Assembly (NCBI RefSeq): GCF_009905605.1
Contig: NZ_JAAAKZ010000002.1
Span: forward strand, 62,001 to 126,000
DNA from: Runella sp. CRIBMP
GTDB lineage: Bacteria > Bacteroidota > Bacteroidia > Cytophagales > Spirosomataceae
Length of the DNA: 64,000 nt
Direction: 5' to 3'
Positions within the stretch are counted from its first letter, which is position 1, and each line of letters begins with the position of its first letter. The notes under the pieces are model-generated. The model was not told where the DNA came from. It searched no databases and saw only the letters and a program-made list of their open reading frames with translations. This document shows, in pieces, positions 2,673-58,354 of the stretch. A program made the translations under genes and the position numbers.

Positions 2673-3860
2673 ATGAGTACTACTTTATCAACATCGACAC
2701 GACAAACCGATTTTTATCAACTAGATGACTTGCTGACCGAAGAGCATAAGATGGTTCGGGACGCGGTTCAGCAAATGATTAACCGCGATGTGCGGCCCAT
2801 CATCGAAGAGTATGCCCAGAAGGCGGAGTTTCCTGCTCATTTGATTCAAAAGTTTGCCGAAATCGGCGCCTTTGGCCCAACCCTGCCGATTGAATACGGC
2901 GGTGGTGGACTTGATTATATTTCGTATGGTTTAATGACTCAAGAAATCGAACGATGTGATTCGGGAATGCGCTCAACCGTATCGGTGCAAAGTTCGCTCG
3001 TGATGTGGCCAATTTATGCGTACGGCTCGGAAGAACAGCGCCAGAAATACCTGCCCAAATTGGCTTCAGGTGAAATGGTGGGTTGTTTTGGCCTTACAGA
3101 GCCCAATCATGGCTCAAATCCAGGAGGAATGTTGACCTCCTTTAAGGATGCAGGCGACTACGTCGTGTTGAATGGTTCAAAATTGTGGATTACTAACTCC
3201 CCCGTGGCCGATATTGCGGTAGTATGGGCCAAAAACGAACAGGGACGGATTCGCGGATTGATTGTAGAAAAGGGAATGGAAGGCTTTTCAGCACCCGAAA
3301 TTCATAATAAATGGTCGCTGCGAGCGAGTGTTACGGGAGAACTGGTATTTGATAATGTGAGGGTGCCCAAAGAAAATATTTTGCCCAACATTGAAGGCTT
3401 ACGTGGGCCGCTTGGCTGCCTCGACAATGCCCGCTACGGCATCGCATGGGGCGCTATTGGCGCGGCTATTGACTGCTATGAAACGGCATTGAAGTATTCA
3501 TTAGAACGTGAACAATTTGGCCGACCCATTGCAGGGTTTCAATTGCAACAGAAAAAGTTGGCCGAAATGTTGACCGAAATCACCAAAGCGCAACTATTGA
3601 CTTGGCGACTAGGAACCCTCAAAAACGACGGGAAAGCCACCACCGCCCAGATTTCAATGGCCAAACGTAACAATGTCGACATGGCACTGCACATTGCGCG
3701 CGAAGCCCGACAAATGCTCGGAGGAATGGGCATCACGGGCGACTATCCCATTATGCGTCACATGATGAACCTTGAGTCGGTTATTACCTACGAAGGCACA
3801 CACGACATACATTTGTTGATTTTAGGACACGAAATTACGGGGATTCAAGCCTTTAAATAA
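2673..3860 (+). CDS. Acyl-CoA dehydrogenase, glutaryl-CoA dehydrogenase type
   Basis: A 395-residue cytoplasmic FAD enzyme. It has the full acyl-CoA dehydrogenase architecture: helical N-domain, beta domain with 'GCFGLTEPNHGSNPGG' and 'LNGSKLWITNSPVADI', and C-terminal helical domain with 'ALEYSLEREQFGRPI'-like and 'ARQMLGGMGITGDYPI' segments. The catalytic base is Glu374 in 'TYEGTHDIHLL', the position used by glutaryl-CoA and short-chain enzymes. The T-E-P-N-H-G-S stretch and the ITGDYPIMRH segment favour glutaryl-CoA dehydrogenase (oxidative decarboxylation of glutaryl-CoA to crotonyl-CoA in lysine/tryptophan breakdown). Length is complete. It is monocistronic or shares a message with the GT39 gene 63 bases downstream. 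Confidence 0.85.
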   Translation: MSTTLSTSTRQTDFYQLDDLLTEEHKMVRDAVQQMINRDVRPIIEEYAQKAEFPAHLIQKFAEIGAFGPTLPIEYGGGGLDYISYGLMTQEIERCDSGMRSTVSVQSSLVMWPIYAYGSEEQRQKYLPKLASGEMVGCFGLTEPNHGSNPGGMLTSFKDAGDYVVLNGSKLWITNSPVADIAVVWAKNEQGRIRGLIVEKGMEGFSAPEIHNKWSLRASVTGELVFDNVRVPKENILPNIEGLRGPLGCLDNARYGIAWGAIGAAIDCYETALKYSLEREQFGRPIAGFQLQQKKLAEMLTEITKAQLLTWRLGTLKNDGKATTAQISMAKRNNVDMALHIAREARQMLGGMGITGDYPIMRHMMNLESVITYEGTHDIHLLILGHEITGIQAFK

Positions 3861-51757: not shown

Positions 51758-53530
51758 TTACTTTAAAAGTTTTTTGGCTTCTTTAATATCAATCTTTGCT
51801 TTGTGACCATGCTTCTCAAGTAAATAAAGAAGATTGGCACCATTCATTAATGTCAGTGGTTTTCCTTTTACGAAATCATATGCATCAGGCCCATAGTCAG
51901 CCGTGGTTACTAGGATACCTTTGGTCGCTCCCTCATTCATTACAGTTCCATAAAGATCCCGGACCGCGGAGACTCCAACAGTGTTTGTATATCTTTTTGC
52001 CTGAATTACAATTTTTCCGCCTCTGATTGGATCGGGATCAAACGCGATTGCGTCAACGCCTCCATCTTTGCTGGCCTGAGTAACTTTTACTTCTCCACCA
52101 TTTGAATTAAACTCTTTAGAAAATATTTCCCGTATTAAATGTTCAAAGTCTTCCCAATCCATTGCTGCTAAATTCGTAGAGTCATCTATACTTCCGGCTA
52201 CATCATAGTGATGGATGAATCTCTTATCGCTCCGATTAATTTGCATGATGGGTTGAACGGCAGTAAGCCCGCTTAGCTTACTGCTCCCCACACCTTTGAG
52301 GTTTTTAAAACATGCTTTCGGGTCAACCAGGGATAAGTCGATTTGTTGAAATTCAGATTTTTTCGCCTGGATTGACAAAATACAGTTGTTCTCAACTTTA
52401 CCCGTTGCTTTATTTATCGCATTTACCCATCCGTTAAATGATATAGCTTCAATTGCCCCGATAACATCAGCTTCAAAGAGTTCATGCAATGTTCGTAATG
52501 TTATATTATACATGGTAACATCAAACATTTTCAGCAACTGGGTTTCGGAAATAAAGTATTCCTTTAGTTCATTACGAAGAAACTTTACCTCACTTAAAGT
52601 AGGAAGGTTTTCAATCGATGGTAATGTATACTCAACAATCAATATTTTATTTTCTCCATTGTAGTCCAATTCAAAAGACTTGGGGAACTCATCAGGATAT
52701 TGAGAATTATTCAACACTAACTCACAGTATTCATGTATAGCCTCTTCGTCAGCCTTAAAGTAATTTTCTTTTAGTATGTCTACTTTTGAATTTTTTAGGC
52801 TTTGTATTTCATAGAATACATCCTTTTCTTTTTCCCACTCTATAGTTTTTTTTGAAAATTCATTTTTTAGGGTTTCAACTTTTGAGTTGTAAGCGTTTAA
52901 AGCTCTTTGATAGTCTCTTTTTAAAGCCTCATTTTTTTCGGAAATCCGTTGGTATTCAATATTCCTCTGAACCATTGCTGCCTCAAAAAGCTCATTTGCT
53001 TTTTGAATTTTCTTCTCTTTTCTAGATTTAAAGAGGTTATCAAGAAAGGTGAGCTGAGGGCTAAATGATTCTACAATAGGTATCCGTGGAAAGTTTGTTT
53101 GATAAATGGGCTCATCAGGGGCTTTTACTTTAGCTAATTGTGCCTTTAGCTCATGTTTGGGGTGAGGCTTTTTAAACTCTGAATTATCCTTTATTTGTTC
53201 CCAGTCTACAGCGTCATTGATATTTAGGGTATACTTTAGTAGGTTTTCAATCCTTTTTAAATTATTGACAGCATCTTTAGTCCTGATTTCAGCTTCTAAT
53301 ATGTTAGCTTCTTTGGTTGATAGTAACTTTTGTTTTGTACTGACAATGTTCCATCTTTCAGTAAGCTTTTCCACATAGGCCTCCACCTTACTGTCAAGTA
53401 TGTACCGTTCATCAGCAGTAATTCTTTTAAATTCCTTTAAGCCTTTATGGTATATCTCGGCTATATGCTTGATTTTCCAACTACGTAGTTCTTCAGTACT
53501 GTATAAAATTTGTACAAGCTCAGTATTCAT
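51758..53530 (-). CDS. Mrr-type restriction endonuclease with coiled-coil N-terminus
   Basis: 590 residues. Residues 1-270 are rich in long charged helices ('EILEAEIRTKDAVNNLKRIE' type; 'EKKIQKANELFEAAMVQRN'). The C-terminal about 135 residues form the Mrr_cat PD-(D/E)xK fold: 'WEDFEHLIREIF', 'ASKDGGVDAIAFDPDP' (metal Asp near 491) and 'KIVIQAKRYTNT' (Q-x-K near 509), then 'VRDLYGTVMNEGATKGILVTT'. All catalytic residues are present. Type IV restriction enzymes of this class cut modified or foreign DNA. First gene of a three-gene cassette carried next to the prophage repressor. Confidence 0.8.
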   Translation of the reverse strand: MNTELVQILYSTEELRSWKIKHIAEIYHKGLKEFKRITADERYILDSKVEAYVEKLTERWNIVSTKQKLLSTKEANILEAEIRTKDAVNNLKRIENLLKYTLNINDAVDWEQIKDNSEFKKPHPKHELKAQLAKVKAPDEPIYQTNFPRIPIVESFSPQLTFLDNLFKSRKEKKIQKANELFEAAMVQRNIEYQRISEKNEALKRDYQRALNAYNSKVETLKNEFSKKTIEWEKEKDVFYEIQSLKNSKVDILKENYFKADEEAIHEYCELVLNNSQYPDEFPKSFELDYNGENKILIVEYTLPSIENLPTLSEVKFLRNELKEYFISETQLLKMFDVTMYNITLRTLHELFEADVIGAIEAISFNGWVNAINKATGKVENNCILSIQAKKSEFQQIDLSLVDPKACFKNLKGVGSSKLSGLTAVQPIMQINRSDKRFIHHYDVAGSIDDSTNLAAMDWEDFEHLIREIFSKEFNSNGGEVKVTQASKDGGVDAIAFDPDPIRGGKIVIQAKRYTNTVGVSAVRDLYGTVMNEGATKGILVTTADYGPDAYDFVKGKPLTLMNGANLLYLLEKHGHKAKIDIKEAKKLLK

Positions 53531-55252: not shown

Positions 55253-55416
55253 TCTTCACCTTACAGTTTATCGCTTTTAGCCTGCTCATTGTGCTGCTCA
55301 TCACTGCCTGCTATTTGTTGGGAGACCTCTATCGCGATTTTCGGCGGTTTTTGAAACTGTGTTGGAAAAACTCAAAATCTAAAAACAGCTATGAGCAATC
55401 TCATACCCATCAATAA
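55249..55416 (+). CDS. Small membrane protein, 55 aa
   Basis: ATG at 55249 overlaps the previous stop; TAA at 55414. One membrane helix ('FIAFSLLIVLLITACYLLG', about residues 7-26) followed by a basic cytoplasmic tail ('YRDFRRFLKLCWKNSKSK'). Its 3' end overlaps the next gene by 26 bases. Below the usual ORF length cutoff but clearly part of the compact operon. Might be an accessory of lysis or superinfection exclusion; function unknown. Confidence 0.6.
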   Translation: MIFTLQFIAFSLLIVLLITACYLLGDLYRDFRRFLKLCWKNSKSKNSYEQSHTHQ

Positions 55417-55696
55417 TCGCCTTACGCGCAGGCTGGAAGAGGCCCGCAATTGCATGGAAGAGATGATGAAGTACCCAGGTGATGCTCATCTAAACCGTAC
55501 CATGACCCGAATCCTGGGCAACCATTTGGATGCCGTTGGCATGACCATGGCGCAGTTTCTTCAGATGTATTTTGCACCTAAAGCCCAAGTAACTCTCAAA
55601 CCGCAATTTGAGTGCAGTTGTGGCCGCCGTTTTGGCACCTCTCAGGCCCTCAGTGGCCATAAGCGCACCTGCAAGAAAGGAGGGGATGAATTATGA
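55391..55696 (+). CDS. Small protein with C2H2/C2HC-like zinc finger
   Basis: 101 residues. The C-terminus has 'CSCGRRFGTSQALSGHKRTC': a C-x-C pair, then H-x4-C after 12 residues, with the hydrophobic spacing of a classical zinc finger (F and L at the core positions). Bacterial fingers of this form (Ros/MucR-related or phage-borne) bind DNA. The N-terminal half is a helical region 'EARNCMEEMMKYPGDAHLNRT'. Overlaps the next gene by ATGA at 55693. Confidence 0.7.
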   Translation: MSNLIPINNRLTRRLEEARNCMEEMMKYPGDAHLNRTMTRILGNHLDAVGMTMAQFLQMYFAPKAQVTLKPQFECSCGRRFGTSQALSGHKRTCKKGGDEL

Positions 55697-55941
55697 AGCA
55701 CTGGTTTAAATCCGAAATCAACCACGAGTTTTACTTGCTGGTAGAGCTCACCGAGGTAAAAAACGCTGATGGTATGCCCCGACTGGAGCCAGAGCTAAAA
55801 GGCTTTATTCATGTGCGACAATCGCGGGTTTGGTATGGGGCTGCCTTTGTGCCCGAGCCCAGATACATTGCTATTACGCCCACGATGCGGGTGTTTGAAG
55901 CCAAAAAAGCAGTAGAAGCCGCCACTAAAAACCAATCCTGA
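55693..55941 (+). CDS. Early phage protein, 82 aa, unknown
   Basis: Starts inside the previous stop. Short beta-rich protein ('EINHEFYLLVELTEVKNADG', 'GFIHVRQSRVWYGAAFVPE') with a C-terminal helix. No family recognised. Coupled layout supports it. Confidence 0.6.
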   Translation: MKHWFKSEINHEFYLLVELTEVKNADGMPRLEPELKGFIHVRQSRVWYGAAFVPEPRYIAITPTMRVFEAKKAVEAATKNQS

Positions 55942-55942
55942 T

Positions 55943-56170
55943 ATGAAGCAAGTTTCCGCGCATACTGTATGGGCGCAGACCATCATCGTACGGCTCAATT
56001 CGGCCCTTGGTCGTATGGGCTACTGGAGTGTAAAAATTTGGCATTATGATAATGCTCCGCGTTGGAAAAAGTACCTCATGGGCGGTGCCCTGTACCGAGC
56101 ATTCCTGCGTCAGCAATACGAAGCGGCGCTGGATAGCTACATGGCGCTGGACCTTCACGTGAAAGATTAA
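55943..56170 (+). CDS. Early phage protein, 75 aa, unknown
   Basis: Last gene of the overlapping early operon, one base after the previous stop. Basic, tryptophan-rich ('GYWSVKIWHYDNAPRWKKYL'), helical end 'FLRQQYEAALDSYMAL'. No family recognised. The large non-coding region begins directly after its stop. Confidence 0.55.
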   Translation: MKQVSAHTVWAQTIIVRLNSALGRMGYWSVKIWHYDNAPRWKKYLMGGALYRAFLRQQYEAALDSYMALDLHVKD

Positions 56171-56804
56171 TGCGCTGTAATTGCGGGTATATATATAAGG
56201 TAGAAAATTAGCTGATACATGCAACATCTACTTGAGATAGGGATAATAGTGATCGCATTTTTGGCGTTGGCTCCGCTCTTTCGCGGACGTGGTAAATAAC
56301 TGACTGTCGGGCGCTCATCAAAGTAGAGGGTTTAGGACGGTGACACTCGCCCTGCCGCTTTGTGCAGGGATGAGTGCCCGGCAAAATACTTTTCGAAAAG
56401 TAGTATTTGGGCGGTTCGACTCCGCTCCGAAGAGCAACCCGTATCAAAAAGGCTGTAAAGGCAGCTGCACTGTGGGTTTCAGGGGGGATGAGTCCGAGGA
56501 AATCCCCCAATGGGCAGGTCATGCGTGACCAAACCCCCTGAGTTGTGGTAAACTCTTGGAAATGCTAAGTCGGACCTGTGCAGTTGCGCCCTGAGCGAAG
56601 GATTCAGGTAGTTGGCCGTCAACGAAGATCGCCCTGCCAAGGGCACCAACCCCCAACCACGCGGATACCCTCCGCGTGGGTAAGGGAAACTGTACTCTGT
56701 CGGAGGTTCCCCCAACGGGGGCAGGAATCGTATTATCATATGTAAACAATAGTGGATTATAGACAAAGCCGGTTAGGGGTTTAGGAGAACGAGATAACCG
56801 GAAT
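56171..56804 (+). ncRNA. Large ornate structured RNA candidate (about 630 nt), prophage-borne
   Basis: No credible protein gene; many strong hairpins in a G/C-rich stretch inside an A/T-rich element. Examples: 56309-56319 with 56367-56377 region (GGGCGCTCATC/GATGAGTGCCC, one G-U); CCCTGC/GCAGGG at 56350-56370; 56385-56405 palindromic ACTTTTCGAAAAGT; GGGGGAT/ATCCCCC around 56482-56507; GGTCA-TGCG-TGACC at 56517-56530; GAGTT...AACTC at 56540; GCCC/GGGC at 56630; CCACGCGGA/TCCGCGTGG at 56657-56679; CCGGTTA/TAACCGG at 56768-56800. A T-arm-like GGCGG-TTCGACT-CCGCT is at 56411. An initiator-type tRNA follows at once. The context fits the GOLLD/ROOL type of giant phage RNA. Confidence 0.55.
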
Positions 56805-56876
56805 CGCGGGGTAGAGCAGTGGTAGCTCGCCGGGCTCATAACCCGGAGGTCGTCGGTTCGAGTCCGACTCCCGCCA
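56805..56876 (+). tRNA. Initiator-type tRNA-Met (CAT)
   Basis: Complete cloverleaf: acceptor 56805-56811/56869-56875, D stem GAGC/GCTC, anticodon stem CCGGG/CCCGG with loop CTCATAA (anticodon 56837-56839), T arm GTCGG-TTCGAGT-CCGAC. The three G-C pairs next to the anticodon loop and the unpaired first base pair (C1 against C72) are initiator hallmarks; classical bacterial initiators have C1-A72. CCA is not encoded. Located inside the prophage, directly behind the structured RNA. Confidence 0.92.
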
Positions 56877-56965
56877 CAACAAGGACGCCAGCCGTCAGTT
56901 GAGTGGCCGCAAAGCGGGGTAACGCCCGCTCTGCGAGTCGCATGGAATTTTATTGCTTAAAAAAA

Positions 56966-58354
56966 ATGGACATTAAGCCGCAAATCAATTATCACGATGC
57001 CGTTACGCTTTGGTGTCGGCGCGTGGATGAGTACAACGAACAGTGCCCAGTAGTTGAGAAAAAGACCACCAGACACTTACCTAATGGCACTGTCGAAGAA
57101 GTTTCGACCTTCAGGAAGGTAGGCACGATCAAGGGCTCTGTCAAAACGACTGGGATGCACTTGATACGTCGGTACGTGGAAGCCTGGGCGGCTGCGAATC
57201 TCACCACCAAGGAGATTCCTAGCCCCGCTGACGTGTACATTTCGACCAACCGGGTGGAGCTCGCCGAGCGCCTTAGCCGCTCCCATCGGAGCGTCTATGA
57301 CCATATCAGAAAGCTGCGCCAGGTGGGCCTTGTGGATAACTACCAATTTTGCGGGCGTCACAACGATTTTAAGGTGTGGATAAGTCCTGAAATTCTGTTT
57401 GGTGGGGTGGAGCGAGCAAAGTCGAAACCTGCCCAAAAAGCCCAAAAAACGGCTTTAAAATCTTCAGTACGGCAAAATTTGCCGCCTTTAGATATATCAC
57501 TTAAACAACAATCAACTACAATAAGTAAGGTTGATTGTGGACAAACACCGAAACAAAATCACGGAGACAACAAGGATCCGCACAACCCTGCCTTCGAAGG
57601 CAACGCCCCGACCAAGCAGGCTTTGTGGGCCACGGAGACAAGAGGAGGGGGGCGGGGCGCGGCCGAGTACGAAAAGCTGTTTAAGAGCTTTAATCGGCTA
57701 CCTAAAGCCCTGAAGGAGATTGTGCTTAACCTTTGGCTGGTAATCAGAACCTCACTTTATAGCCGGCATGAGTGGTCAAATGAGGAAAATCACATGGCTG
57801 TTTTGGAGCTTTACGACCATCTTTTTGGTCGTTTTACAACCACACAATCGGAGAAAGCCTGGAAAGACTACGCTGTTGAGCTCAGCGAACGGGTGGAAAT
57901 GGCCAAGGCTTGGTTTGATAAAAACGCTCAAAGACACCCCGATTATCCCTTCCAGCGCGGTAAAAAAATGGGGTATTTTGACCCAAAAAACAACTTCGGA
58001 TTTGCCGTAACGGCCCTGTGGCTGGCCAAAGATAAGCTTCGAAAGCGCCAAAATAGGGTAGAATACCTACTGAATCAAGCCCGAATAGATTTTGAAAAAC
58101 TCGCAGCGGGTAAACCTCGCCCCAAAGTGATGGAGAAGAACGAGTTGCAGCTTTTTGTCTACTACCAAAACTGGGCAAAAACCTACGGAAAAGAGGTAGA
58201 AGAGAGATTCTGCCAGCAATACCTATCCCAAAAAGCCCGAAAATTTGCCCCTGCCAGACCCCAACGACTCACCATACGTGCCCAAAAAGCGGCCGACAAA
58301 GCTGCACAAGTAGTGTATGTGGAGCCGTGGATGGAAATGGGAGAATATTATTAA
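56966..58354 (+). CDS. Phage replication/DNA-binding protein with winged helix
   Basis: 462 residues from ATG at 56966; longer frames to GTG 56903 would run through structured RNA and lack typical sequence. A wHTH lies at about residues 100-150 ('NRVELAERLSRSHRSVYDHIRKLRQVGLVD' pattern), then a phage replication-initiator-like linker with low complexity and basic patches ('KPAQKAQKTALKSS', 'TRGGGRGAAEYEKLFKSF'). The C-terminal half is helical with 'GYFDPKNNFGFAVTALWLAKDKL'. Position after the early operon fits a replication organiser; no helicase or primase motif is visible, so this is inference. Confidence 0.6.
   Translation: MDIKPQINYHDAVTLWCRRVDEYNEQCPVVEKKTTRHLPNGTVEEVSTFRKVGTIKGSVKTTGMHLIRRYVEAWAAANLTTKEIPSPADVYISTNRVELAERLSRSHRSVYDHIRKLRQVGLVDNYQFCGRHNDFKVWISPEILFGGVERAKSKPAQKAQKTALKSSVRQNLPPLDISLKQQSTTISKVDCGQTPKQNHGDNKDPHNPAFEGNAPTKQALWATETRGGGRGAAEYEKLFKSFNRLPKALKEIVLNLWLVIRTSLYSRHEWSNEENHMAVLELYDHLFGRFTTTQSEKAWKDYAVELSERVEMAKAWFDKNAQRHPDYPFQRGKKMGYFDPKNNFGFAVTALWLAKDKLRKRQNRVEYLLNQARIDFEKLAAGKPRPKVMEKNELQLFVYYQNWAKTYGKEVEERFCQQYLSQKARKFAPARPQRLTIRAQKAADKAAQVVYVEPWMEMGEYY

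Follow-up and report, generated by a model that had tools for sequence, protein, structure and literature searches.

We found that the stretch ahead of the putative replication gene (rep) of a Runella prophage belongs to a family of tRNA-like leaders that, on sequence comparison, is well supported upstream of rep in the Spirosomataceae, of which Runella is a member. The core of the family would be a slot that holds a tRNA or a tRNA-like fold, with a structured leader immediately after it. Directly observed are the modules and their locations, the order and strand in which relatives carry them, and the covariation of the T arm and one leader, C1. We give an even chance to the reading that the stretch as a whole serves a prophage replication operon as its intergenic leader, assembled from RNA modules that can be exchanged, and that the tRNA fold in it is processed. 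The window, that is the whole stretch of DNA analysed, comprises 64,000 nucleotides of Runella sp. CRIBMP (contig NZ_JAAAKZ010000002.1), and positions given without a locus number are those of the window.

Prophage setting and noncoding character

The rep gene (56966-58354, plus strand, 462 aa) encodes a putative replication initiator with weak resemblance to O-type replication initiators (phrog_345, E 0.0036). An identical gene lies on a 56 kb IMG/VR viral contig, and a head maturation protease is encoded downstream of rep, so the prophage context proposed in the first-pass annotation holds. A row of small early ORFs precedes 56171-56965, the last of them at 55943-56170 (plus strand, 75 aa, without a family match); a repressor-like gene lies on the opposite strand and an excisionase-like gene further upstream. 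The plus strand of 55900-57000 contained no intrinsic-terminator pattern, and no promoter was found in a scan for the E. coli type, whose scope leaves out the promoters of Bacteroidota.

Three other genes were recorded. A small ORF at 55391-55696 has a C2H2-like zinc finger (sub-threshold in Pfam), with similar small proteins upstream in several relatives by eye. The C-terminal part of a 590-aa protein encoded at 51758-53530 resembles, by eye, an Mrr-type restriction domain. An anti-restriction protein is encoded in the late part of the prophage (L306, 8475-9368; phrog_7245, E 1.1e-67).

The stretch had been described as holding no credible gene, and five small ORFs over it indeed had no Pfam match at E<=1, on which ground a decayed gene was rejected. 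The plus strand of 56171-56804 (634 bases) folded 5.3 S.D. better than 20 shuffles, and the minus strand 2.3 S.D. better. When the stretch was folded piece by piece against 200 shuffles each, 56301-56390 (z -4.3) and 56769-56804 (z -4.4) were the clearest structured pieces. Moderate values were obtained for 56391-56605 (z -2.2), 56606-56700 (z -2.7) and 56878-56950 (z -2.5), while the first 130 bases (56171-56300) and 56701-56768, both at z 0.2, stood at the level of shuffled sequence. The description of about 630 bases filled with many strong stems therefore had to be trimmed: the predicted structure is confined to 56301-56700, 56769-56804 and 56877-56945, the last of which covers the segment 56880-56940 correctly called structured before, and 56171-56300 and 56701-56768 are predicted to be unstructured. 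In several pieces the antisense z was nearly equal to the sense z, so folding energy alone is no proof of an RNA. What may be taken as proved to be RNA, by comparison among relatives, is the tRNA-like and leader modules only.

A tRNA-like slot upstream of rep in relatives

Homologues of rep were present in 26 of 222 family genomes, that of the window included, and 37 upstream stretches were taken. ARAGORN reported a tRNA, often of an odd kind, in 23 of these 37 loci, and the Rfam tRNA model matched 19 of 36 (41.6 to 69.3 bits). A strict test, which required a five-pair T stem with the T-loop consensus and at least six Watson-Crick acceptor pairs, picked out an element of acceptor plus T arm at 28 of the 37 loci. 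Such counts are not independent, since many loci are near copies (L038/L039, L040/L042/L043, L059-L062, L064/L066). Within the 97.6 kb examined, 33 elements were sense and one was antisense. Control viral DNA gave 15 elements in 1.99 Mb (both strands, real tRNAs included), and the density upstream of rep was 45 times that of the control. Nine of the 37 loci failed the strict test; relaxed versions were seen by eye in five of them, and L054, L056, L057 and L058 showed no element by eye even when relaxed.

The anticodon arm is the variable part. It was swapped for one long hairpin in L257 and L032, with acceptor and T arm kept, replaced by a GAGA tetraloop in L052 and by a longer stem in L041 and L055, and missing altogether from L036, L043 and L045. 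In a lenient test of 25 elements (which leaves out L040, L052, L036, L038, L053, L059-L064 and L066), a seven-base anticodon loop was found in eight, four of them spurious by eye (L042, L043, L047 and L055), and 17 had no usable anticodon arm. That relatives keep the tRNA fold but often lose this arm suggests a signal residing in the shape of the tRNA. Two units in tandem, as in the window, also occur in L050 and L261.

Some elements of these loci have unusual anticodons or anticodon loops. In two different phages, L053 (733-821) and L063 (516-604), a minus-strand initiator-type tRNA has its anticodon loop interrupted, at one and the same position just ahead of TCATAA, by a hairpin and about five further bases. 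On the minus strand of L046 (343-413), a tRNA-like element with a CTA anticodon (the amber-suppressor form) and four of five stem pairs is joined to a C1 leader.

These data bear on another account, in which the element is an ordinary phage tRNA that serves translation or replaces host initiator tRNA cut by defences, the leader structures being unrelated. The window holds a complete initiator tRNA, complete tRNAs are likewise joined to the leader in L050 (initiator) and L272 (phenylalanine), and L032 and L257 have a separate complete initiator tRNA besides the tRNA-like element. Altered anticodon loops in phage tRNAs have also been proposed to resist anticodon nucleases (PMC10264068). However, the account does not fit the 17 of 25 elements that lack a usable anticodon arm, nor those elements that consist of acceptor and T arm alone and still keep the leader junction, and we consider it unlikely.

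Leaders C1, C2 and C3, and covariation in C1

Three kinds of leader follow the slot. In C1, one base after the acceptor 3' strand is followed by a CAGGGTA-type sequence (14/14 loci), then in most loci by a GTAG/CTAC hairpin, and then by a long hairpin flanked by CCC on one side and GTAA-GGG on the other. In C2, the acceptor 3' strand is followed by RCCA and CCGAAGTAGGC (6/6 loci). The host's own initiator tRNA gene, which is intact (L301), has no encoded CCA, which makes it noteworthy that C2 loci do encode RCCA. C3, found in the window, L030, L031, L032 and L257, places AACRAGGACGCCAG and a stem-loop after the tRNA fold.

A model of the T arm plus C1 (R1) was built from 10 sequences. In its alignment 96.6% of cells paired, and 11 of 18 pairs had changes on both sides, a number reached by none of 500 shuffles; slid versions of the alignment paired in 30 to 55% of cells. 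Seven loci outside the model paired in 108 of 114 cells, with new pair types present, in an alignment fitted to R1 and with part of the long hairpin lacking from two of the seven. When the 222 family genomes were searched with stricter filters, all 17 R1 matches at E<1e-6 fell within 600 bases upstream of rep, 10 of them being the sequences from which R1 was built and at least two others near copies. Covarying stems, which had been suggested as a check in related prophages, were thus found in the T arm and C1, but the ornate domain in the middle of the window's stretch (described below) has no relative to compare.

The leaders could alternatively be a cis-acting antitermination or translation-control region, in which a protein reads the tRNA-like fold and hairpins without any cutting. 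The present stretch lies between early regulators and the replication gene, a position comparable to that of antitermination sites in lambdoid phages, and one hairpin loop, GGGGTAACGCCC, is common to the window's C3 and to C1 loci. Such a reading leaves the hallmarks of tRNA processing unexplained, namely the seven-pair acceptor, the T loop and the RCCA of C2, and we regard it as quite unlikely.

The initiator tRNA of the window and its leader

The initiator-type tRNA predicted by the first-pass annotation is present at 56805-56876, or 56877 (plus strand, CAT anticodon, no encoded CCA), and scores 64.3 bits against the 29-bit gathering score of RF00005. Bacterial initiator tRNAs are marked by a CAT anticodon, a 1:72 mismatch, an A11-U24 pair and three G-C pairs by the anticodon loop; read from its sequence, the window tRNA has the mismatch, A11-U24 and the three G-C pairs, and hence the complete initiator set. 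Its 3' end is abutted by the C3 leader (56877-56945, plus strand), which consists of the AACRAGGACGCCAG hairpin and a GTGGC/GTCGC stem with loop GGGGTAACGCCC. The two-hairpin fold recurred in all five phages with C3, whose leaders amount to only three really distinct sequences, those of L031, L032 and L257 being almost one sequence.

R1 matched the window's T arm and C3 at 56852-56946 with 33.3 bits; the E value was 4.6e-7 in 14 kb and 2.3e-4 over the whole genome. This score is close to the 30.8 to 32.5 bits of ordinary tRNAs elsewhere (L286, L287 and L300) and below the 35.7 bits of a chance match inside a gene (L299). Because the score lies within the range of ordinary tRNAs, membership of the family is argued from position and from the relatives with C3: the window has a tRNA fold joined to a C3 leader upstream of rep, and C3 is common to four relatives. 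The first-pass annotation had suggested that the tRNA may be embedded rather than merely adjacent. It does look embedded in a structured RNA, as judged from relatives, which retain at the corresponding site a tRNA fold that passes directly into a structured leader.

A second ATG occurs at 56942, within GCATGGA at the end of C3, in frame with rep (56966). The ATG of this motif is in frame in L032, opens a seven-codon frame in L257, is out of frame in L031, and is absent from L030.

Modules upstream of the tRNA

Module A (56306-56382, plus strand) is a 14-bp stem, GTCGGGCGCTCATC/GATGAGTGCCCGGC, enclosing AGAGGGTTTAGG (56325-56336) and an inner hairpin. Similar elements were seen by eye in L030, L039 and L056. 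The motif GGGTTTASG occurred in the sense direction in 6 of the 37 relatives' loci and in the antisense direction in none, and 632 kb of control DNA contained one (both strands). A second, short A-like hairpin, CCGGTTA/TAACCGG enclosing GGGGTTTAGG, lies at 56769-56801 on the plus strand, within the well-structured piece 56769-56804.

Between module A and the tRNA, a possible minimal tRNA-like element (56389-56434, plus strand) combines the acceptor CTTTTCG/CGAAGAG with a T arm, GCGG-TTCGACT-CCGC (56411-56425). It is a weak candidate: R1 gave 11.5 bits (E 0.077), a competing hairpin is present, and the T hairpin folded in the isolated 46-base piece without two acceptor bases and was absent from longer folds. 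Further downstream, a C1-like leader (56605-56690, plus strand) has CAGG, a GGTAG/CTGCC hairpin and then CCC-AA-CCACGCGGA/TCCGCGTGG-GTAA-GGG, and no clear T arm lies immediately 5' to it. R1 recognised no more of it than the last hairpin, at 56651-56686, with 19.1 bits (E 0.0011 in 14 kb).

An orphan domain of about 170 nt (56436-56605, plus strand) separates these two elements. It contains a GGGGGAT/ATCCCCC hairpin and the complementary CTGCAC (56465) and GTGCAG (56578). GTCCGA and TCGGAC, pointed out earlier as a pair, are indeed exact complements, at 56492 and 56570, and since GTCCGA lies in the loop of the GGGGGAT/ATCCCCC hairpin, a pseudoknot could form in the predicted fold. A search of 221 other genomes and of 39 loci with a single-sequence model of the domain returned no relative, so the structure given here for it is a prediction. 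An exact pattern of this central domain had zero matches on viral contigs, a scan that perhaps did not include the window's own genome. The sequence GATGAGTCCGAGGAAA at 56488 suggested a self-cleaving ribozyme, a candidate dropped when Rfam gave no match.

A further account is a self-contained noncoding RNA of the GOLLD or ROOL kind with a tRNA built in, expressed in the lytic phase and acting in trans. The size of the stretch, the pseudoknot-like pairing, the prophage and the built-in tRNA are all in keeping with such an RNA. Rfam searched over 55900-57300 at E<=10 had no match to either model, however, so membership of those classes was not borne out; only tRNA reached threshold, the other two matches being far below their gathering scores, and no family besides tRNA fits. 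Against it stand also the lack of relatives of the central domain and the fact that the conserved modules adjoin one gene, as cis elements do. We hold this account to be very unlikely. The suggestion of a new class is borne out in part: the tRNA-like fold and its leaders are what is conserved, and the searches gave no relative of 56436-56605, the most ornate part.

Distribution of the element

In 13 rep-homologue loci of Hymenobacteraceae (Pontibacter and Hymenobacter), ARAGORN found no tRNA within about 1.5 kb. The strict test applied to 3.5 kb upstream gave one doubtful match (L247) in 15 Hymenobacter and Pontibacter loci, and one match (L267) in 13 further viral contigs. On account of these two, the slot may rarely reach beyond the Spirosomataceae. 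The L267 element (2980-3120), which lies outside Spirosomataceae-type loci, is a tRNA-like fold upstream of a rep homologue, with a very long helix in place of the anticodon domain.

R1 covers C1 only; beyond the family, its matches did not exceed 33.6 bits in 390 genomes of the order and 395 of the class (E limits 0.001 and 0.0005; the samples overlap with the family). Four weak matches were obtained there (L286, L287, L304 and L305), and the two that were inspected, L286 and L287, are tRNAs. In L287 (1476-1560, a genome of another family), an ordinary proline tRNA is followed by the C1-like CAGGGTAGGAAACTAC, with no second hairpin. Two DNA similarity searches with the whole stretch, one against 99 other genomes and one with 20 of 616 records listed, returned among the matches listed only the tRNA part and a few adjoining bases.

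On viral contigs, a T arm lay near the exact C1 pattern in 4 of 5 stretches and near the exact C2 pattern in 1 of 36. The module A pattern matched 81 stretches, and of the 80 loci listed, three have a T arm or tRNA close by. Two of these, L149 and L118, look real, the latter having a seven-pair acceptor by eye, and the third, L119, is an ordinary tRNA array. The remaining module A matches were set aside as chance by appearance. With up to one mismatch, the C3 motif occurred at 23 places in 13 Runella genomes, three of which are the known loci; of the other 20, the eight inspected resemble ordinary genes. Among the open-licence papers listed on GOLLD and ROOL, tRNA-like phage RNAs, phage tRNA defence and the host genera, we recognised nothing as this element.

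A proposed processed leader of the replication operon

The acceptor and T arm are the parts of a tRNA read by RNase P, RNase Z and the CCA-adding enzyme, and an encoded CCA commonly blocks RNase Z. From the sequences we infer that RNase P and RNase Z process the operon transcript at its tRNA fold. A single transcript would extend from the early regulators across the leader and on into rep. In the window it would include the C1-like leader (56605-56690), placed after a poorly understood insert, and the C3 leader (56877-56945) fused to the complete initiator tRNA. RNase P, reading the acceptor and T arm, would cut at the 5' end of the tRNA fold, and RNase Z could cut after the discriminator base where CCA is not encoded, as in C1 and C3. 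The cuts would separate two messages, and the downstream one would gain a defined, structured 5' region that may serve its stability or translation. A passage of PMC4919922 states that bacterial RNase P tolerates extensive truncation of the tRNA, and one of PMC11143913 that the enzyme also processes phage C4 and M3 RNA as well as mRNAs.

Two observations argue against processing: the operon can lack the element, as in the 13 Hymenobacteraceae homologues without a tRNA by ARAGORN, and C2 encodes CCA. The proposal also leaves unexplained the complete initiator tRNA in the window, L032, L050 and L257, and the orphan domain. It is exceedingly improbable that the phage tRNA instead makes up for the loss of a host tRNA gene through integration, the tRNA-dependent lysogeny that a part of PMC10865867 reports for mycobacteriophages, since the intact host initiator tRNA gene largely refutes it and the relatives have non-decoding forms.

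The proposal of a processed leader can be widened. We think it possible, while leaning against it, that one lineage of Cytophagales phages, chiefly of Spirosomataceae, has made tRNA genes serve as a structural slot without identity. Whatever tRNA fold stands there, decoding or not, would stay fused to a structured leader because the host's enzymes of tRNA maturation cut the replication message at that point or cap it, and further domains, among them the window's possibly pseudoknotted insert, would have been grafted in. If so, the tRNA fold would serve these phages as a signal in an operon without regard to decoding, and the loci would form a natural series that begins with a complete tRNA and ends with no more than acceptor and T arm. 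Some annotated phage tRNAs would then perhaps not be for translation.

Comparison with known RNA systems

Like GOLLD and ROOL, the stretch is a large structured prophage RNA near or containing tRNAs, and the window has the GOLLD-type setting of a prophage with a tRNA beside or inside the RNA. Unlike them, its conserved parts are a tRNA-like fold and leaders upstream of one gene, with no Rfam match. A likeness in shape is found in mascRNA and menRNA, cut by RNase P and RNase Z from the MALAT1 and MEN beta transcripts, in which acceptor and T arm are kept and the anticodon arm is reduced (for mascRNA, a passage of PMC4919922 names both enzymes). The L043 element scored best as mascRNA, below threshold (29.6 bits against 42.5, E 0.051). 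These are animal RNAs and no common descent is implied, whereas the element described here is a phage operon leader that sometimes holds a complete tRNA. The C4 antisense RNA of phages P1 and P7 is likewise a phage RNA and an RNase P substrate, according to a section of PMC11143913, but the present element has no Rfam match to it and is not antisense as far as seen. Transfer-messenger RNA shares a tRNA-like domain in which another helix replaces the anticodon arm; ARAGORN found none in the window or the 37 loci and Rfam none in the window, and in L048 an 18-position match to the Rfam tmRNA model stayed below threshold. Finally, phage tRNAs with changes in the anticodon loop resemble our elements in that the loop is altered. 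There, according to PMC10264068, the tRNAs are regarded as functional and the mutations stay inside the loop, whereas in the loci studied here whole arms are lost or replaced and a leader is fused to the fold.
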